Shown piece after piece: positions 9,008 through 61,638 of a stretch of DNA of 64,000 bases; the first letter of the stretch is position 1; each line of letters starts with the position of its first letter. Origin of the DNA: Nitrososphaerota archaeon (GTDB lineage: Archaea > Thermoproteota > Nitrososphaeria_A > Caldarchaeales > JAVZCJ01); the NCBI GenBank assembly GCA_038874475.1, contig JAVZCJ010000008.1, positions 1 to 64,000 of the forward strand. Reading direction: 5' to 3'. Position numbers and translations under genes: made by a program. A model generated the notes under the pieces. The model was given only the letters and a program-made list of their open reading frames with translations. It ran no database searches and was not told the origin of the DNA.

Positions 9008-9155
9008 GGGGGCGTAGCCTAGCCAGGTCAAGGCACCGGGCTCCAGTAATAAATGTAAATTAGAAAATTCTGACAAAAAGGATGAAGAATTACTGGAGCT
9101 GGCGAAAAAAAGCCGCTATACCCGGCGTTCGTGGGTTCGAATCCCACCGCTCCCA
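9008..9155 (+). tRNA. tRNA-Trp (CCA) with a long intron
   Basis: The acceptor stem is GGGGGCG (9008-9014) with CGCTCCC (9148-9154), the D stem GCC/GGC, the anticodon stem CCGGG (9036-9040) with CCCGG (9121-9125), the T arm GTGGG-TTCGAAT-CCCAC, and the discriminator A at 9155. CCA is not encoded. The anticodon CCA is at 9043-9045. The intron runs from about 9047 to 9119 (73 nt) at the usual 37/38 site. CTCCAGTAAT (9041-9050) pairs perfectly with ATTACTGGAG (9089-9098), supplying the exon-intron helix. A second hairpin (9097-9117) lies between that helix and the 3' splice site, which is not standard. Archaeal tRNA-Trp introns sometimes encode a box C/D guide, but the boxes here are incomplete. 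Confidence 0.92.
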
Positions 9156-13338: not shown

Positions 13339-13611
13339 ATGAGGAAATTAATTGTAAAAGTAAAAGAGATCAAAGGAAAATGCGATATAATGAAAATAGG
13401 AGATTATTTTATATTAGATGGGGGCAAACTTATAATTCCAGAAAAGAATAAGCATGTATGCATATATGCTTTATCAAGCCTTTTACCTTTATTACCAGCT
13501 AAACAAAGGAATATAGTTGAACCTGAAGATTGGCTTCCAAGAACAAGCCTTGTTGAATGTCCTGACCCTAATGGAAGAGTCATATGGGAAATATCTTATT
13601 TAGAAGAATAA
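13339..13611 (+). CDS. TIGR04076 family protein
   Basis: This 90-residue protein has KVKEIKGKCDIMKIGDYFIL at residues 6-25 and further conserved elements (ALSSLLPLLPAKQR, LVECPDPNGRVIWEI). The order of a Cys near residue 15, a central helix and C-P-D-P near the end matches the TIGR04076 family of small anaerobe proteins, whose function is unknown. Some members sit beside oxidoreductases. The gene ends inside the last 16 bases of the convergent livF-like gene. A TATA-like stretch lies about 30 bases before the ATG, which suggests a leaderless transcript. Confidence 0.7.
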   Translation: MRKLIVKVKEIKGKCDIMKIGDYFILDGGKLIIPEKNKHVCIYALSSLLPLLPAKQRNIVEPEDWLPRTSLVECPDPNGRVIWEISYLEE

Positions 13612-14327
13612 TTTATACTTCTTCTTAAGAATACTTCCTTTATATTTTCTTCTTTTATTTCTCCTTTTTCTGCTTTAAATACACATTTTCCAGAAACTAA
13701 TACATATATTCTTGAAGCTATTTCTAAAGCTTTTCTCACATTTTGTTCAACTATAAGAAAAGAAATATCATACTTTTCATTTAATTCGATTATTTTATTA
13801 TAAAAATCTTTTAAAATCTTTGGTGCTAAATTAGCTGTAGGTTCATCCAATATTAATAATTTTGGCTCAATAATCATTGCTCTTGCAAGTGCAAGCATTT
13901 GCCTTTCCCCTCCACTTAATGTTTCTACTTTCTTGTTTCTTAAATTGCTTAATTCTGGAAAAATATCAAACACATTGTTTAATAAATCTTCAAATTTTTT
14001 CCTATCTTTTAAAATATATGCTCCAATTTCTAAATTTTCCTTTACTGTTAAATCTGTGAATACATTATCCAATTGAGGCACATAACCAATCCCTTCTTTT
14101 ATAATTCTATTTAAACTAATATTTGTTATATTTTTCCCATTAAAGAAAATTTCTCCATTAAATATTTTAGCTATTCCAACAATGCTTTTTATTAATGTAG
14201 TTTTTCCTGCTCCATTTGGTCCAAGAAGAAATACTATTTCCCCTTTACAAACATTTATTGAAATATTTTCTATTACTATTATTTCTTCATATCCTGCTGA
14301 AATATTTATTGTTTTTAGTATTTCCAT
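13596..14327 (-). CDS. livF: Branched-chain-type ABC importer ATPase, LivF-like
   Basis: The 243-residue ATPase has Walker A GPNGAGKTTLI, signature LSGGERQMLALARAM, Walker B LLILDEPTANLAP and switch H-region FLIVEQNVRKAL. The VEQN form and the short length identify LivF of the HAAT family. It is the last gene of the five-gene operon that starts at 18136. With LivG it energises uptake through the LivH/LivM channel. The substrate could be leucine, isoleucine and valine but also amides or urea, since paralogues differ. Confidence 0.88.
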   Translation of the reverse strand: MEILKTINISAGYEEIIVIENISINVCKGEIVFLLGPNGAGKTTLIKSIVGIAKIFNGEIFFNGKNITNISLNRIIKEGIGYVPQLDNVFTDLTVKENLEIGAYILKDRKKFEDLLNNVFDIFPELSNLRNKKVETLSGGERQMLALARAMIIEPKLLILDEPTANLAPKILKDFYNKIIELNEKYDISFLIVEQNVRKALEIASRIYVLVSGKCVFKAEKGEIKEENIKEVFLRRSINYSSK

Positions 14328-14337
14328 TAAAAAACAC

Positions 14338-15099
14338 CTATTTTTCTCCTAAATATGCTTCTAATACTCTTTCATTATTTATTATTTCTTTAGGAGTACC
14401 TTCAGCAATTATTTCTCCTTTATCCATAACAAAAATATATTCAGCAAAATCGAATAAAAATTCTATTCTATGTTCTATTATAAAGAAAGTAATATTGAAC
14501 ATATTTCTTAAATCAATTATTTTTCTAAATATTTTTTCAGCTAATAATGGATTTATACCTGCAACCAATTCATCTAATAAAAGCATTCTAGGATTGCACA
14601 TTAAAGCTCTTCCAATTTCAAGAAGTTTTAATTGTCCTCCAGAAATTTTCGTTGGTAAAGAATTCTTCAATTCTTTTAATTCTAAAAATTCAAGTATATT
14701 CAGTGCTTTCTTTATATTTTCTTCTTCTATTTTAATCCAATTATTCTTATTAAAAACATTTGATATTTTTTCTCCTTTAATATTTTCAGCAGCTATTAGC
14801 ATATTTTCAAGTATGGTTAATCTTTTAAATATACGTGGAATTTGGAAGCTTTTAATAATCCCTTTATTAGATATTTCATATGGTTTTAAATTATCTATCC
14901 TTTCTCCATTAAAGAAAATTTTTCCATTATCAATTTTATAAATTCCTGAAATAAGATTGAATAAAGTTGTTTTTCCACTTCCATTTGGTCCTATTAAACC
15001 AGTAATTGTTTTTTCTTTAATTTTAAGAGATACATTTCTCACTACTTTTAATCCATTAAAGCTTTTATGCACATTTTCTAAAATTAATATATTTTTCAT
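14338..15099 (-). CDS. livG: Branched-chain-type ABC importer ATPase, LivG-like
   Basis: The 253-residue ATPase has Walker A GPNGSGKTTLFNLISG, signature ISGGQLKLLEIGRALM, Walker B MLLLDELVAGINP and IIEHRIEF. The LVAGI wording after Walker B and the extra sequence between Walker A and signature (PRIFKRLTILENMLI) are typical of LivG. It lies ten bases before livF and four bases after livM, within one transcription unit. It pairs with LivF to hydrolyse ATP on the cytoplasmic face. Confidence 0.88.
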   Translation of the reverse strand: MKNILILENVHKSFNGLKVVRNVSLKIKEKTITGLIGPNGSGKTTLFNLISGIYKIDNGKIFFNGERIDNLKPYEISNKGIIKSFQIPRIFKRLTILENMLIAAENIKGEKISNVFNKNNWIKIEEENIKKALNILEFLELKELKNSLPTKISGGQLKLLEIGRALMCNPRMLLLDELVAGINPLLAEKIFRKIIDLRNMFNITFFIIEHRIEFLFDFAEYIFVMDKGEIIAEGTPKEIINNERVLEAYLGEK

Positions 15100-15102
15100 T
15101 AT

Positions 15103-15993
15103 TTATTCAACCTTCATTCTTTTCTCTTTCATTATGCCTTCAGGCTTATGCATAATGAATAGAACCATTAAAATACCTGTTATTATAAACATAAAATTAT
15201 TTGGGTCGATTGGTATATTTGTATAATCTTTCAATATTCTCGTTCCTCTCTCAATTCCTCTCATAATAAAAGCTCCGATTATAGCTCCATTAATATTTGA
15301 TGGTCCACCTATGATACACATTATCCATATAGTGAAAGTTGTAGTTGATAAAAATAAGTCTGTGCTTATATATCCAACATATTGTGATAAAAAGCTACCA
15401 GCAGCTCCTGCCATAGCAGAACCTATTATAAATATCTGAGCTTTATACTTGAATGTATTTTTACCAAGAATTTGAGTTAATGTTTCATCTTCTCTTATTG
15501 CTTTCAATATACGTCCATAAGGTGAATTTGTTAATATTTTTACAATTAAATGAAAAGATAATAATATTCCAATTACTAAGAATAAATTTAAGATTAAGAA
15601 TATTTCATAGCTTAAATTTTTTAATGGAAAAGCTGATGGAATATTTTTTAAACCTATTGGTCCTCCAGCAATCCAATATTCATTTTTTAATATTATTCTA
15701 ATACATTCGCTTAAAGCTAATGTTATAATAGCAAAATAATCTTCTTTAACTTTAATCATTGGAATAGATGATATTAAACCTATTAAAGCTGAAAATAAAA
15801 TAGCAAATAATAATCCTATAAAATAATTTAATCCATTCAATGTTACAATGGCTGAAACATATGCTCCAATCATGAAAAATAATGCTTTGCCAAAATTGAC
15901 TATTCCAGTAAAACCATACTCAATACTTAAGCTAAGAGCTAAAATAGAATATAAAGCAATCCATATAAAAGTATCTAAAAGGAAAGCAATCAT
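15103..15993 (-). CDS. livM: Branched-chain-type ABC importer permease, LivM-like
   Basis: The 296-residue membrane protein has about eight to nine hydrophobic segments. The family signature reads LSIEYGFTGIVNFGKALFF near the N-terminus, and the cytoplasmic coupling loop is SPYGRILKAIREDETLTQILG. IGGPSNINGAIIGAF near residue 240 is the expected GG-x-G loop. It forms the channel with LivH, which ends 11 bases upstream. The length matches archaeal LivM proteins. Confidence 0.87.
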   Translation of the reverse strand: MIAFLLDTFIWIALYSILALSLSIEYGFTGIVNFGKALFFMIGAYVSAIVTLNGLNYFIGLLFAILFSALIGLISSIPMIKVKEDYFAIITLALSECIRIILKNEYWIAGGPIGLKNIPSAFPLKNLSYEIFLILNLFLVIGILLSFHLIVKILTNSPYGRILKAIREDETLTQILGKNTFKYKAQIFIIGSAMAGAAGSFLSQYVGYISTDLFLSTTTFTIWIMCIIGGPSNINGAIIGAFIMRGIERGTRILKDYTNIPIDPNNFMFIITGILMVLFIMHKPEGIMKEKRMKVE

Positions 15994-16004
15994 ATAACAT
16001 CCCT

Positions 16005-16898
16005 CTATTTTCCAGTTTTTGTAATTAATCCATATGGCTTGAAAAGAAGTATAGCTATCAAGATTATAAAAGCTATTATAACTTTATATTCAGTTGATAA
16101 ACTGAACATTGTCAATAATATTATTGAAAAATTTTCTACTAAACCTATAATATAAGCTGAAGCTATTATAGCATATAGATTTTTTATTCCACCTAAAATA
16201 ACTACTGCAAAAATTGGAATCATCAAATCCCATCCAAGAATAGGAGTTATTCTAGTATCTCCAGCTCTAAAAACTCCTCCAATTCCTGCCAATCCAGCTC
16301 CAATAAACCATACAAGCAATAAAATTTTCTCTTTATCTATTCCGCAAACCATTGCTAAAATTTGATTATTTGATAATGCTCTCATTGCTTTCCCAATTAA
16401 TGTTTTTTTCAAAAATAAATGTAATGAAAATACAAGGATTAAAGATGTTGCTATTGTTAAAATCCATAAAGATGTCACACGTAACGGACCTATATTAAAA
16501 GCATTAAACCATATTTTATATGTTAATGATTCTCTTCCATAAATTTGATACATTGAATATCTAAGGAATAAGCCATATCCTAAAGAAGCAATTGCAAGAT
16601 GCATTGAAGTACCCTTTCTTTTAGATAATGGTTTAAAAACAATCAAATATGAGAATATTCCAAGCAAACCTGTTAAGATAAAAGCTACTATAATTGCTAG
16701 AAGAAAATTATTTCCAATCAATTCAAGAGAAATATATGCAGCATATGCTCCAAATGCAAGAAATTCTGCATGTGAAATATTTGGAAAATTAAGCAAGCTA
16801 TATGTTAAAGAAAGTCCTAAAGCAGCTAAAAAGTATATGCTTCCAGTTATCAATCCATTAAAAAAAATTTGTAGGAAGTTTATCGATGCTATATCCAT
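16005..16898 (-). CDS. livH: Branched-chain-type ABC importer permease, LivH-like
   Basis: The 297-residue membrane protein opens with FFNGLITGSIYFLAALGLSL and LLNFPNISHAEFLAFGAYAA, the LivH signature. A coupling loop (TLIGKAMRALSNNQILAMVCG) follows around residue 180, then FAVVILGGIKNLYAI. Eight or so transmembrane helices are visible. It follows the binding-protein gene by 14 bases and precedes livM by 11, so translation is probably coordinated across the operon. Confidence 0.87.
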   Translation of the reverse strand: MDIASINFLQIFFNGLITGSIYFLAALGLSLTYSLLNFPNISHAEFLAFGAYAAYISLELIGNNFLLAIIVAFILTGLLGIFSYLIVFKPLSKRKGTSMHLAIASLGYGLFLRYSMYQIYGRESLTYKIWFNAFNIGPLRVTSLWILTIATSLILVFSLHLFLKKTLIGKAMRALSNNQILAMVCGIDKEKILLLVWFIGAGLAGIGGVFRAGDTRITPILGWDLMIPIFAVVILGGIKNLYAIIASAYIIGLVENFSIILLTMFSLSTEYKVIIAFIILIAILLFKPYGLITKTGK

Positions 16899-16912: not shown

Positions 16913-18136
16913 CTATCCCTTTTTCATCATCAATCCTTGTACAATGTTCCATGAGCCAATTGTATCAAAAGAATATTTTCCATCAATCTTAGAAACTCTC
17001 CATATTTCATAGTCTACAAGAATTACATCTCCATTTTCATCAAATGCTTTATGTCCAGTAGCACCTACATAATATTTTGATACAACTTCTAAAGCTTTCT
17101 TGATTTCATATCCATTATAAGCACTTGCTTTAGCAATAGACAATGCTGCAAGCATTGTAGCATCATAAGTATAATCGCAGAATAAACTAGGTTCTTCTTT
17201 AAAGTATTTCTTATATTCTTCATAGAATATACTATATCCAAGTGTTCCTTTAGGAGAAGAAGGCTTAGTTCCCATTAAACCAGTTTTTAAAATATATTCA
17301 GCAGCTTTTTCATCTTCAAAGAAAGCTACATCAGCCATTCCTTCACCTCCAAGTGTAGGTATATTTTCTAAACCCATATCAAGAGCTTGTTTGAAAACAA
17401 TTTTCCCACTCTCAACCCATAAAGCATAGAAAATTGCTTCGGGATTAATTGAAGCTACTTGCATTAATTCTGTTCTATAATCTCCTTTTGCTGGATCATA
17501 TCTAATATTTAATGCAATTCTTTCTCCAAGCAATTTTTTCAATCCTTCTTCAAGACCTATGCCATAATCATTTGCAACAACAAATGTTACAATCTTTTTA
17601 TATCCTTTCTCTTCTATTATGCTTGCTATTGCTTTAGTTTGTAGAATATCACTTGCAACAACTCTAAATACATAATCATTTCCAAGTTCGCTTATTTTTG
17701 CAGCTGTAGCAGACATTGAAATTAATACTACTTCTCTATCATTAACATATTTTGAAATAGCTAATACTTCAGTACTTGTTGCAGGACCAACTATTACTTT
17801 TACTCCTTCTATTTCTATAAGCTTTTTAGCTGCTTCTATTGCTTTTTCTGGAAGAGCTAAAGTATCTTCTGCAACTATTTTAATGAATTTCCCATTTATT
17901 CCTCCTGTATCATTTATTATTTTAGCTGCTAATATTGCTCCATTAAGCATTTTGCTTCCAATAGGTCCAAGTTCACCACTTAATGGAAGCATTACACCTA
18001 TCTTTATTTCTCCAATTTCCTTAGGTAAAACATATGTGGTTTGCTGTAAAATAGCATAGTATCCTACTAAAATTCCTAGTATAAAGAAAATCAAAGCAAT
18101 TGCTAATATTTTTATATTTTCTTTTCTAGAAAACAT
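16913..18136 (-). CDS. livK: Branched-chain-type ABC importer substrate-binding protein, membrane-anchored
   Basis: The roughly 407-residue protein begins with a hydrophobic anchor (ILAIALIFFILGILVGYYAI) and no lipobox cysteine. The periplasmic-binding-protein fold of the LivJ/LivK type follows: IKIGVMLPLSGELGPIG, AAKLINDTGGINGK-like text, VKVIVGPATSTEVLA and YDATMLAALSIAKAS. ATG 18136 is chosen over the upstream TTG because the strong GGAGGTGGG ribosome site (18149-18141) lies directly before it. It is the first gene of the operon, placed 3' of a long structured leader. It catches the substrate outside the membrane, but the ligand cannot be read from sequence. Confidence 0.87.
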   Translation of the reverse strand: MFSRKENIKILAIALIFFILGILVGYYAILQQTTYVLPKEIGEIKIGVMLPLSGELGPIGSKMLNGAILAAKIINDTGGINGKFIKIVAEDTLALPEKAIEAAKKLIEIEGVKVIVGPATSTEVLAISKYVNDREVVLISMSATAAKISELGNDYVFRVVASDILQTKAIASIIEEKGYKKIVTFVVANDYGIGLEEGLKKLLGERIALNIRYDPAKGDYRTELMQVASINPEAIFYALWVESGKIVFKQALDMGLENIPTLGGEGMADVAFFEDEKAAEYILKTGLMGTKPSSPKGTLGYSIFYEEYKKYFKEEPSLFCDYTYDATMLAALSIAKASAYNGYEIKKALEVVSKYYVGATGHKAFDENGDVILVDYEIWRVSKIDGKYSFDTIGSWNIVQGLMMKKG

Positions 18137-18138
18137 TT

Positions 18139-18330
18139 TTCCCACCTCCAAAAAATAATAAGTTTAGAGGGATAGCCCTAAATGGATTACTTATTTTATA
18201 TTCTAGAAATATTCTCTGAATGAAACTCACTTGGGGGAATAAATCATTGAAATACTTAATGCTATAGAGGTTATATTGGCTTAATGCTTGTCCAAACTAA
18301 ATCCCCCAATTGTTTCACCTCTAAACTATT
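18139..18330 (-). promoter_or_regulatory. Long structured leader of the importer operon (riboswitch-like)
   Basis: On the minus strand a TATA box (TTTTAAATAC, 18360-18351) with GAAAG just upstream predicts a transcript start near 18330. The leader then forms nested helices: AGTTTAGAGG (18327-18318) with CCTCTAAACT (18170-18161), TGAAAC (18317-18312) with GTTTCA (18226-18221), and TTGGGGGA (18309-18302) with TCCCCCAA (18238-18231). The 3' strand of the outer helix can instead fold locally, TTTAGGG (18182-18176) with CCC..TAAA (18171-18163), followed by a T-rich run (18162-18150) and then the ribosome site. AGCATTAAG occurs twice inside the apical region. The mutually exclusive folds are seen in sequence. 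Control of expression is inferred. Confidence 0.7.
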
Positions 18331-18442
18331 TTTTAGGAATGAAGAGAAAAGTATTTAAAACTTTCGTTTTTCTAATTTTAGAATAATGATAATTTTTAAT
18401 AATATTAAGAAATTTAATAATGAATAAATAAAGTGGTTTTTA

Positions 18443-18937
18443 ATGAAGAAAATATTTATTGATGCGTTTAAGTGTGCTGGTTGCAAATATTGTGAACTTT
18501 CATGCTCTTTTTATCATGAAGGAAAATTTAATCCAAAATTATCAAGAATAAGAATTTTTAAAGAAGATGAATATGGAATAGATAATCCAATTTTATGTAG
18601 TTTATGCTCATATTGTCCATGTATAAATATTTGCCCAACAAATGCTTTTTATAGAAATGAAAAAGGTTTTATGGAAATAAATATTGAAAAATGTATAAAA
18701 TGCTATAAATGTATTGAATCATGCTTTTTTGGAGCAGTTTTCCTTCATATAGAGAAAAACATTCCAATTGTATGCAATTTATGCAATGGAGATCCACAAT
18801 GTGTTAAAAAATGTCCTACAAAAGCAATTGTTTTTTTAGAACCTAATGAATTTGCTAAAAAGAAAAATTATGAATATTCAAGAATTGTTTATCAAGATTT
18901 CCTTAATAAACATGGAATAAAGATTAAAAGTGATTAA
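18443..18937 (+). CDS. Polyferredoxin-type electron carrier for the aldehyde oxidoreductase
   Basis: The 164-residue protein has four cysteine clusters: CAGCKYCELSC (residues 12-22), CSLCSYCPCINICP (54-67), CIKCYKCIESC (near 85-95) and CNLCNGDPQCVKKCP (near 112-126). It resembles the HycB/DmsB-like four-cluster ferredoxins. Proteins of this type are encoded next to tungsten aldehyde oxidoreductases and pass electrons to or from them. It ends one base before the oxidoreductase start, so the pair is coupled. It is cytoplasmic, with no signal. Confidence 0.85.
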   Translation: MKKIFIDAFKCAGCKYCELSCSFYHEGKFNPKLSRIRIFKEDEYGIDNPILCSLCSYCPCINICPTNAFYRNEKGFMEINIEKCIKCYKCIESCFFGAVFLHIEKNIPIVCNLCNGDPQCVKKCPTKAIVFLEPNEFAKKKNYEYSRIVYQDFLNKHGIKIKSD

Positions 18938-18938
18938 A

Positions 18939-20837
18939 ATGAAATATTATGGATATGCAGGAAAAATTCTTAGAATAAATTTAACAAAAAGAGATTTTTC
19001 AATAAAAAATTTAGAAAAAGATTTAATGATAAATTTTTTAGGTGGTAGAGGTTTTAATTCTAAAAGGTTATTCGATGAAATCCCTCCAAAAATTGATCCT
19101 TTAAGTCCTGAGAATAAATTAATTTTTTCTACTGGACCACTTGTTGGAACAATGTTTCCTACAGCTTCCAGATTTAATGTAAGTGCAAAATCTCCTCAAA
19201 CGAATATTTTAGGAGATTCAAATGCAGGTGGACATTTTGCATCTGAAATGAAATATGCTGGATATGATCAAATTATTTTAGAAGGGAGAAGCAAAGAGCC
19301 AATATATTTATACATAAATGATGATAGTATAGAATTTTTAGATGCAAAACATTTATGGGGAAAAGATGTTTATGAATGTGATAGAATTATAAAAAAAGAC
19401 CTTGGAGATAAGAGTATTCAAACAGTTATTATTGGTCCTGCTGCTGAAAATGGAGTAAAATTTGCTGGAATATTTGCAAATTTAATGAGAGCTGCTGCTA
19501 GAACTGGAATGGGTACTGTAATGGCTTCTAAAAATTTAAAAGCTATAGCTATAAAAGGAAGTAAATCTATCGAAGTAGCAAATCCTAAAAAATTTGAAAA
19601 AATTATTGAGGAAATAGAAGAAGAAATTTATAATCATCCACAATATTGGCCAAGAAGAAAAATGGGTACTACTAGAATTCTTCTTCCAGTAAATGCAATG
19701 GGCTTTCTTCCAACTAGGCATTTTACTTCAACTGTTTTTGAATTTGCAGAAAATGTAAGTGGAGAAAAACTTGCAGAAGAATATAATATTAAAGTTAGAG
19801 GATGTTTTTCATGCATTCTTCCATGTAGTAGATTCTATATTATAAAAGAAGGTAAATATGCTGGTTTATATGGTGAAGGGCCAGAGTATGAACCTTTAAG
19901 TTCTTTTACTGCACGTGTAGGAAATGGAAATTTACAAGTTGCTTTAAAAGCAATAGATATGGTAAATAAACTTGGTTTAGATGCAATAACAACAGCTGAA
20001 TGTATTTCATGGGCAATGGAATGTTACGAAAAAGGATGGCTTAAGAAAAATGATGTGGATGGATTAGATTTAACATGGGGAAATGAAGAAGCTATTTTAA
20101 AACTTATAGAAAAAATTAGTAAAAGAGAAGGGTTTGGAGATATTTTAGCAGATGGAGTAAAAAAAGCTGCGGAAAAACTTGGAATAGGGAAAGAAATAGC
20201 TATGCATGTTAAAGGTTTAGAAATTATACAAGCAGATCCAAGAGGAGCAAAAGGTTATGGATTAGGATATGTTGTAGCAAGTAGAGGAGCAGACCATCTT
20301 AGGTCAGAACCATTCATGGAATTAAGTGATGATCCAAAGAAAGGAGAAAAACTTTTTGGTATTCCTGAAGCAACAATAAGATTAGAATATAAAGGTAAAG
20401 GGAAACTTGTAAGTTATTGTGAAGATTGGTGTGCAATTGTAGATTCTCTTGAAGTATGTAAAAATGTAGCTGAAAATATGGAAATACTGCCTTTTGATAA
20501 AGCTGCAGAAGTTATAGAAGCAGCTACTGGTTTAAAATTAAATGGAAATGATGTTAGAAAAATAGGAGAAAGGATAATAAATATTGAAAGAGCATTTCTT
20601 ATTAGAGAAGGGATAAGAAAAGAGCATGATACTTTACCTAAAAGATTTTTAGAAGAACCTATTCCAAGTGGAGTATCTAAAGGATCAATATTTGAACTTG
20701 AAAAAATGTTAAACGAATATTATGAAGAAAGGGAATGGAGTAAAAAAACAGGAATTCCATATAGAGAAAAATTAAAAGAATTAAATTTAGAAAATGTAAT
20801 AGAACAATTTGAGAAAATTGGAATAGAAATGGAATAA
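18939..20837 (+). CDS. aor: Tungsten-containing aldehyde:ferredoxin oxidoreductase
   Basis: The roughly 632-residue enzyme starts KYYGYAGKILRINLTKRDFS, the AOR N-terminal domain. It has LGGRGFNSKRLF and GPLVGTMFPTASRFNVSAKSP, which bind the tungsto-bispterin cofactor, and CFSCILPCSRF (near residue 290) supplies three cysteines of the 4Fe-4S cluster. The fourth Cys lies in the C-terminal half (VSYCEDWC or LEVCKN). Members oxidise aldehydes to acids with ferredoxin. The family also includes enzymes for formaldehyde, glyceraldehyde-3-phosphate and aromatic acids, so the substrate is open. ATG 18939 is preferred to a GTG at 18930. The ferredoxin partner is immediately upstream. Confidence 0.88.
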   Translation: MKYYGYAGKILRINLTKRDFSIKNLEKDLMINFLGGRGFNSKRLFDEIPPKIDPLSPENKLIFSTGPLVGTMFPTASRFNVSAKSPQTNILGDSNAGGHFASEMKYAGYDQIILEGRSKEPIYLYINDDSIEFLDAKHLWGKDVYECDRIIKKDLGDKSIQTVIIGPAAENGVKFAGIFANLMRAAARTGMGTVMASKNLKAIAIKGSKSIEVANPKKFEKIIEEIEEEIYNHPQYWPRRKMGTTRILLPVNAMGFLPTRHFTSTVFEFAENVSGEKLAEEYNIKVRGCFSCILPCSRFYIIKEGKYAGLYGEGPEYEPLSSFTARVGNGNLQVALKAIDMVNKLGLDAITTAECISWAMECYEKGWLKKNDVDGLDLTWGNEEAILKLIEKISKREGFGDILADGVKKAAEKLGIGKEIAMHVKGLEIIQADPRGAKGYGLGYVVASRGADHLRSEPFMELSDDPKKGEKLFGIPEATIRLEYKGKGKLVSYCEDWCAIVDSLEVCKNVAENMEILPFDKAAEVIEAATGLKLNGNDVRKIGERIINIERAFLIREGIRKEHDTLPKRFLEEPIPSGVSKGSIFELEKMLNEYYEEREWSKKTGIPYREKLKELNLENVIEQFEKIGIEME

Positions 20838-20840
20838 TTT

Positions 20841-22031
20841 TTATTTGATATATGGTTTGAATTCCCATTCTCCTATATTAAATATTATTTTTCTTAAAAT
20901 TTCTTCTGCTTTCTCTTTAGGTAATAAAAGGAATAATTTCCCTAAATGTTTACAAAACATTTTAGATTGCGAAACTCTACTCCAATCAGCACAATCATGA
21001 AGTAAAACTTTTTTATTAAGATCTATTGTAACATGATATTCTTTTACTAAAGCTTCTATCGCTTCATTTTCCATACGCAATATTTTAACATCTTCATCCA
21101 TTATTTCACTTATTTTTTTCATTCTAGCTTTATCTATTAATATTCCTAATAATTCATTAAATTTCATTTTTTCTAAATCTTCTTTAGAAAAAGCAGAAGT
21201 AAAAGAAGTTATTTTAGGCACATAAATTTCTTCTTTTTTAATTTCTAAATATTTATCAAGTTTTTCCTTTAATTCTTTTTGTTTAGATGTCGAGATATTT
21301 AGCATTCCTAGCATTTGTAAACAATTATGAACAGCATATCCATGAAAATGATTATTAAAGAAACCATATACTTTTTCAACTTTTCCTTGCAACTCTTTTA
21401 TTTTTGGAACCCAATCTTTCAATTCTTCTTCTTTATAATGATAATTGTACCACGGCTTTTTTCCTCTACCATGCCATCTAATATAAGTAAAATCTGTAGT
21501 AACTTTTATTATAGGAGGTAAAAGTGGCTCGTCTACAATAGTATAAGCAATATCATAATCACTTAAAATTTTAAAAACTTCATCTTTTAAAAATTTTTCA
21601 CTTCTAAATTCTATAGCATATCTAAAATCTTTAGGCAATATTTTAAGGAATTTCTCAAATTTATCTAAATTTAAATCAAGCTTTGGAGGAAGTTGAAAAA
21701 GTAAGCAACCTAATTTTTCAGATTTTTGAAGAGTTTTCATTAAATCACAAAATTTTAATAAATCTTCCTCAATACCTTGATTTATATCCAATTTCTTTTT
21801 ATGAGTTATAATTTTAGGGATTTTTGCAGTAAAAATAAAATCTTCTCTTGTATAATTATTAAGATATTTAATAACTCTTTCAGAAGGATAAGAATAAAAA
21901 GTAGAATCTATTTCTGCAGTATCAAATATTGAACTATATTTTAAAAGTTTATTTTCATTATCATTCTCATATAAAATTCCAATCCAATCTTTATAACTCC
22001 ATCCTGAAGTACCAAATAAGAATCTAGTCAT
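20841..22031 (-). CDS. DUF72 protein with C-terminal zinc-finger-like domain
   Basis: Residues 1-240 form the DUF72 TIM barrel: FLFGTSGWSYKDWIG, FDTAEIDSTFYSYPSE, LLFQLPPKLD, YAIEFRS, TYIRWHGRG and YGFFNNHFHGYAVHNCLQM. Residues 250-396 are an added helical region ending in LLHDCADWSRVSQSKMFCKHLGKLFL. Its C-x-D-W...F-C-K-H-L order looks like a SWIM-type zinc finger. DUF72 proteins are widespread and their function is unproven. The fusion to a putative nucleic-acid-binding finger suggests a DNA or RNA role. The C-terminus lies four bases from the convergent AOR gene. Confidence 0.7.
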   Translation of the reverse strand: MTRFLFGTSGWSYKDWIGILYENDNENKLLKYSSIFDTAEIDSTFYSYPSERVIKYLNNYTREDFIFTAKIPKIITHKKKLDINQGIEEDLLKFCDLMKTLQKSEKLGCLLFQLPPKLDLNLDKFEKFLKILPKDFRYAIEFRSEKFLKDEVFKILSDYDIAYTIVDEPLLPPIIKVTTDFTYIRWHGRGKKPWYNYHYKEEELKDWVPKIKELQGKVEKVYGFFNNHFHGYAVHNCLQMLGMLNISTSKQKELKEKLDKYLEIKKEEIYVPKITSFTSAFSKEDLEKMKFNELLGILIDKARMKKISEIMDEDVKILRMENEAIEALVKEYHVTIDLNKKVLLHDCADWSRVSQSKMFCKHLGKLFLLLPKEKAEEILRKIIFNIGEWEFKPYIK

Positions 22032-61533: not shown

Positions 61534-61638
61534 GGGCCCGTGGCCTAGTATGGACAAATTTGTCCTTTTTGGACAAATTATAAAAAAGGCGTCGGCCTTC
61601 TAAGCCGGAGATCCCGGGTTCAAATCCCGGCGGGCCCG
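61534..61638 (+). tRNA. tRNA-Arg (TCT) with an intron in the D-loop
   Basis: The acceptor stem is GGGCCCG (61534-61540) with CGGGCCC (61631-61637), the D stem GCC (61543-61545) with GGC (61588-61590), the anticodon stem TCGGC with GCCGG and the loop CTTCTAA. The anticodon TCT is at 61599-61601, the T arm is CCGGG-TTCAAAT-CCCGG, and the discriminator is G. The D-loop is 42 nt, about 30 longer than normal. It contains a perfect 9-bp hairpin, AATTTGTCC (61557-61565) with GGACAAATT (61571-61579), around T5. I read this as a non-canonical intron; the exact cut sites are not decided. CCA is not encoded. Confidence 0.93.

Follow-up and report, generated by a model that had tools for sequence, protein, structure and literature searches.

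The window, by which we mean the whole stretch of 64,000 nucleotides analysed here, belongs to an AT-rich archaeal genome (27% GC in the window, 58% in the 16S). Its minus strand carries LivK-, LivH-, LivM-, LivG- and LivF-like genes, separated by gaps of a few bases to about 15 nt (Table 1). By profile matches these genes are an importer of the branched-chain amino acid/amide (HAAT) type, and the nearest solved relatives of the LivK-like protein are annotated mostly as amino-acid-binding proteins. The ABC importer operon named in a preliminary description of this DNA is in place, its amino-acid cargo being putative, as none of the Liv proteins reaches a curated NCBIfam cut-off. Divergently from the operon, starting at 18443, lie genes for a ferredoxin-like protein and an AOR-family oxidoreductase. 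These genes (18443-20837, plus strand; AOR of the tungsten type) share the intergenic region with the importer, and a link to its cargo is possible.

Upstream of livK, the sequence at 18366-18351, CGAAAGTTTTAAATAC, is consistent with a BRE followed by a TATA box of the archaeal type. The TATA box itself, TTTAAATA at 18359-18352 with CGAAAG just before it, is well positioned and has the same letters in a relative from the same genus. Judged from the TATA position only, the RNA plausibly starts near 18330, directly at the first helix of the leader (P1), and the leader length of ~190 nt is a prediction from the conserved BRE/TATA box. At its 3' tail, the 16S of the same genome reads ...GGATCACCTCCTA, the complement of AGGAGGTGATC.

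Table 1. Features of the predicted leader and of the importer operon, in 5' to 3' order of the minus strand ("relative" is the same-genus genome)
Feature	Coordinates	Strand	Basis or remark
Predicted archaeal promoter BRE/TATA, CGAAAG TTTTAAATAC	18351..18366	-	sequence; identical in relative
P1 5' arm AGUUUAGAGG, also bearing the Shine-Dalgarno of the upstream frame	18318..18327	-	unchanged in relative
Shine-Dalgarno 1, GAGGUGA	18315..18321	-	7 nt complementary to own 16S 3' tail ...GGATCACCTCCTA
P2 core 5' arm; 6 bp here, 4 bp including one G-U in relative	18314..18317	-	
P3 5' arm and extension, covering the start codon of the upstream frame	18302..18312	-	core unchanged in relative
Putative upstream reading frame TTG...TAA, MGDLVWTSIKPI	18271..18309	-	kept as MGDLVWTSIKTI in relative
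P3 3' arm and extension	18228..18238	-	
P2 core 3' arm	18221..18224	-	
Local hairpin 5' arm UUUAGGG, terminator-like; UUUAGAG in relative	18176..18182	-	
Exchange strand CCUCUAAA, partners P1 5' arm, local hairpin or main RBS	18163..18170	-	
P1 3' arm	18161..18170	-	sequence, two-species comparison
U-rich tract after local hairpin	18150..18161	-	sequence; unchanged in relative
Main RBS UUUGGAGG, target of sequestering helix	18145..18152	-	
Main Shine-Dalgarno GGAGGUG	18143..18149	-	
LivK-like substrate-binding protein, first operon gene	16913..18136	-	Pfam Peripla_BP_6 4e-42; PDB 4gnr and others
LivH-, LivM-, LivG-, LivF-like importer genes	13596..16898	-	profile matches; close spacing

The minus-strand RNA had been proposed to fold into three nested helices, and all three are found in the sequence with perfect Watson-Crick arms. 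P1 joins AGTTTAGAGG to CCTCTAAACT (18327-18318 with 18170-18161, 10 bp), P2 joins TGAAAC to GTTTCA (18317-18312 with 18226-18221, 6 bp), and P3 joins TTGGGGGA to TCCCCCAA (18309-18302 with 18238-18231, 8 bp). The minimum free energy (MFE) structure of 18330-18137 includes P1, P3 and five of the six P2 pairs. A nested perfect chain of this kind (24 bp, gaps of at most 3 nt on the 5' side) was reached in 19 of 20,000 dinucleotide shuffles, and an equally long one occurs in 50 of 6,382 overlapping slices of the real window (0.8%), some of them over a predicted tRNA at 9.0 kb. The folding energy of the leader as a whole is ordinary (z = -0.80; 40 of 200 shuffles at least as stable). A further suggested pairing, between ACCTC (18272-18266) and the importer's ribosome-binding site (RBS), is weak and is not kept in the relative, which has ACTTC at this place; we dropped it from the leader.

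The 3' arm of P1 contains a strand that the preliminary description did not single out. This strand, CCUCUAAA, has three possible partners: UUUAGAGG in the P1 5' arm, the local UUUAGRG (18182-18176), and UUUGGAGG (18152-18145), in which the Shine-Dalgarno core of the importer lies. P1 and the RBS-covering helix are mutually exclusive, as both use CCUCUAAA, and both are kept in the two species; helices that alternately cover and free the RBS are thus predicted in each. Folds constrained to one or the other differ little in energy. At 37 C they come to -45.7 versus -41.8 kcal/mol in this species (a gap of 3.9) and to -44.6 versus -45.2 kcal/mol in the relative (a gap of 0.6), and at 60 C the gap between P1 and the RBS helix is 0.7 kcal/mol here and 0.3 in the relative. 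The favoured fold flips with transcript length, that is, with the amount of coding sequence included. The hairpin at 18182-18163, the T-rich run and the GGAGGTGGG ribosome site are all present as first described; hairpin and run give the layout of an intrinsic terminator (UUUAGRG/CUCUAAA followed by UUAUUAUUUUUU), whose predicted pairing is kept in the relative through a change from G-U to A-U.

How unusual is such an exclusive pair? With the RBS held fixed and the rest of the leader shuffled, an RBS helix of at least 8 bp together with a same-strand competitor of at least 9 bp arose in 4 of 20,000 shuffles, and in none of 3,452 real window slices; the criterion was chosen after the structure had been seen, and these figures therefore flatter the case. 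In addition, two Shine-Dalgarno-like strands must compete for any anti-Shine-Dalgarno strand, which makes the coincidence partly automatic and counts against reading it as a bistable leader.

The second of these Shine-Dalgarno-like strands lies at the 5' end of the leader, where the P1 arm runs into the strong site GAGGUGA. It precedes a short reading frame of 12 codons (TTG GGG GAT TTA GTT TGG ACA AGC ATT AAG CCA ATA TAA), and the spacing is the same 6 nt from GAGGTG to the TTG of this frame and from GAGGTG to the ATG of the importer. GAGGTG-type sites are scarce in the window, yet the leader holds two with a start codon 6 nt on. A short upstream frame with its own Shine-Dalgarno, the layout of a leader-peptide attenuator, is found in both species. 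The frame is open in each and differs by two base changes, one of them synonymous, which is too few to show coding selection and weakens the case for the frame as a sensor. By inspection, L, V, I and I are among the 12 peptide residues, so that branched-chain residues account for 4/12, with no clear enrichment. The preliminary description had overlooked this frame, whose Shine-Dalgarno sits inside the P1 arm and which offers a sensor without an aptamer.

The leader was found in one relative only, that of the same genus, where the pairing options and the frame are retained. Substitutions separate the two leaders at 21 positions out of 194, and there is also a 15-nt insertion. Substitutions are absent from the 36 positions of the P1 and P3 arms, against 21 elsewhere in the leader (P = 0.01), and their absence from the 3' arms alone has P = 0.037; the RBS-covering helix is also unchanged. 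P3 is longer in the relative, with C-G to U-A at 19-103 and A.G to U-A at 21-101, and P2 keeps 4 bp there with a G-C to G-U change and loses the A18-U106 pair. Covariation across related genomes had been named as a check on the helices; the two available sequences contain one double compensatory change, a level reached by 245 of 500 shuffles and thus not significant. The promoter region flanking the leader is more conserved than the leader itself, and few nearby stretches are as poorly conserved as the leader middle. A 21-nt stretch after P3, TTTAGTTTGGACAAGCATTAA, is unchanged, and most of the remaining P3 loop varies. Elsewhere, the segments 21501-21600 and 15501-15600 match the relative at 88%, within genes whose remaining parts are ~96% identical.

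We favour the reading that the leader is a bistable cis-regulatory RNA controlling translation of the importer operon, and give it a probability of roughly 0.5. It would act as a lineage-specific RBS-exchange attenuator, possibly worked by the upstream frame. In the ON state, CCUCUAAA would be paired with the RNA 5' end in P1, leaving GGAGGUG free. If P1 were unable to form, CCUCUAAA would cover UUUGGAGG of the importer and turn it OFF; alternatively, CCUCUAAA could first join the local UUUAGRG hairpin before the U tract, in which case termination could also be favoured.

The upstream frame would be the simplest sensor, since the strand that competes is its own Shine-Dalgarno, and we advance it tentatively in this role. 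As the most likely trigger, it would act through the ribosome: held at the upstream Shine-Dalgarno, a ribosome would break P1, free CCUCUAAA and shut the importer; if it stalled further along, for example at Leu, Val, Trp or Ile codons in starvation, P1 would form again behind it and the importer would open. The more specific proposal that the Shine-Dalgarno sites of the leader peptide and of the importer compete for a single anti-Shine-Dalgarno strand, with occupancy of the frame setting importer expression, is slightly more doubtful. We infer where the transcript starts, that the frame is translated, in which sense the leader controls the importer and what signal it answers to. Protein binding is a further possibility.

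That the pairings arose by chance in a long leader that is unremarkable and mostly neutral, with the RBS used as it stands, is an unlikely explanation, although several observations agree with it: the unremarkable MFE z of -0.8, the many inverted repeats expected of AT-rich sequence (an equal chain in 0.8% of window slices) and the poorly conserved leader middle. The rarity of the mutually exclusive pair in shuffles and real slices argues against chance, as does the survival of both helices through 21 substitutions and a 15-nt insertion.

We regard as improbable a metabolite riboswitch of an undescribed class, in which P2 and P3 would form the aptamer and a ligand would stabilise P1 and free the RBS, or the reverse. 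A P1-closed domain beside an RBS-exchange platform is the classic riboswitch layout, and the unchanged 21 nt of TTTAGTTTGGACAAGCATTAA could belong to an aptamer; the same stretch is explained equally well as the upstream frame, and most of the other P3 loop varies between the two sequences. The preliminary description could match the leader to no known riboswitch class, and Rfam bears this out: scans at gathering thresholds gave no leader match and only two tRNAs in the whole window, and under relaxed settings the best match in the leader region, the PrfA thermoregulator, scored 18.9 bits where the cut-off is 88; this was also the sole Rfam hint of an RNA thermometer. Riboswitch classes usually recur, whereas this leader is present once per genome and has no homologue outside the genus among the genomes searched. 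A DNA search of its own genome returned a single match and no second copy, and one that also took in 60 related genomes turned up just the copy in the same genus. A covariance model recovered only the same-genus pair and weak matches, both from 44 genomes within the order and from 398 within the phylum; an aptamer recurring at several loci or species was thus not found among the 398 phylum genomes. Two of the weak matches were read and set aside: one in G009 (E 0.012) has no matching leader, and one in G246 (E 0.003 per genome) is at chance level over 398 genomes and lies over an unrelated gene start. No such leader precedes the LivK orthologues (~41-55% identity) whose 5' ends were read, these being the best-matching ones; they seem leaderless or short-leadered, and in several of them a TATA-like box lies near the start codon.

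As to tRNAs in the window, an Rfam match at 9008-9155 (plus strand) spans 148 nt and is probably an intron-containing archaeal tRNA, for which ARAGORN in its bacterial-code setting reports none. A weak match at 61570-61630 (plus strand; 29.4 bits, model positions 8-63) is borderline and could be a divergent or partial tRNA.

The suggestion that the leader is a regulatory RNA sensing the transported compound therefore divides into two parts. Its first half is strengthened by the exclusive helices, their retention in the relative and the leaderless-looking orthologues; its second half, ligand sensing, has no direct support, as the searches above gave no Rfam class, no second copy and no homologue outside the genus, and covariation between the two sequences does not exceed that of shuffles. 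As a prediction from two genomes, a regulatory leader is probable; that it binds a ligand as a riboswitch is a possibility that lacks support.

A promoter closer to the gene, TATAAAATAA (18200-18191), is very unlikely to be the one in use. This TATA-like box would start the RNA near 18172 and give a short mRNA without P1, with a Shine-Dalgarno-bearing leader of ~35 nt, the long leader being absent or minor; the box is altered to TATAGAAGAA in the relative, where the upstream BRE/TATA is unaltered.

Hardly credible is a DNA operator in which the TTTAGAGG/CCTCTAAA repeats bind a transcription factor, perhaps one common to the divergent ferredoxin-AOR promoter: there are three TTTAGRG-type sites, one of them in a palindrome at 18182-18163, in an intergenic region common to the divergent genes, but the predicted start is upstream of the sites, and an operator would not account for the fit to the RBS. 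Nor is a regulon visible, because each of the two genomes has the palindrome at only one further place, with differing matched sequences, and we rejected the operator palindrome for this lack of a regulon. A mobile element (MITE or transposon) whose terminal repeats would be P1 was rejected as well, the genome having a single copy only. A +1 frame of 56 codons (18296-18129, minus strand) is open through the leader into the gene start in both species; as the remnant of a protein gene it was rejected, since the 21 substitutions have no third-position bias and no relative encodes it; a weak match in the same genome (G000, contig C5) lies on the strand opposite an ABC ATPase-like gene.

The bistable leader favoured here resembles the leader-peptide translational attenuators of the ermC/cat type. 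In these bacterial systems, a short upstream frame with its own Shine-Dalgarno is combined with an anti-Shine-Dalgarno strand that has alternative partners, and the RBS of the main gene is masked in one state. The present leader shares these features and differs in that its leader Shine-Dalgarno itself pairs with the anti-Shine-Dalgarno strand, so that initiation on the leader would shut the main gene; in addition, the host is an archaeon, and no stalling signal is known. With trp/his-type transcription attenuators, it has in common a small frame, some codons of which specify amino acids that may be transported, and an alternative hairpin with a U tract after it, whereas it lacks a run of any one regulatory codon and its terminator is predicted only. 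We know of no demonstrated natural case of leader-peptide attenuation in archaea, nor, to our knowledge, is there an established natural archaeal case of trp/his-type attenuation.

Long leaders are not in themselves surprising in archaea, since leaders of 50-300 nt precede about 20% of the mRNAs of T. kodakarensis, including those of 20 transporter genes (PMC4247193), and since crcB is a riboswitch candidate common to bacteria and archaea and TPP another class present in more than one domain (PMC2864571). According to the same transcriptome study, no direct in vivo support for attenuators or riboswitches in archaea existed in 2014 (PMC4247193). Cis-regulatory leaders remain poorly documented there, and two explicit states with defined point mutations would provide a concrete handle, here in an organism known from a genome assembly alone. 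Like translational riboswitches with Shine-Dalgarno/anti-Shine-Dalgarno exchange (TPP, preQ1, SAM), the leader has a P1 that competes with an RBS-sequestering helix; unlike them, it matches no Rfam family, has no recurring aptamer and occupies one locus in two genomes. The archaeal candidates for fluoride (crcB), TPP and the preQ1-like sRk28 (PMC3124441, PMC4247193, PMC2864571) are likewise structured archaeal 5' leaders, but of other sequence and structure, and each is found in more than one species or locus. In archaea, an explicit two-state RBS exchange coupled to a leader frame would be surprising and, if true, would be an archaeal counterpart of leader-peptide attenuation.
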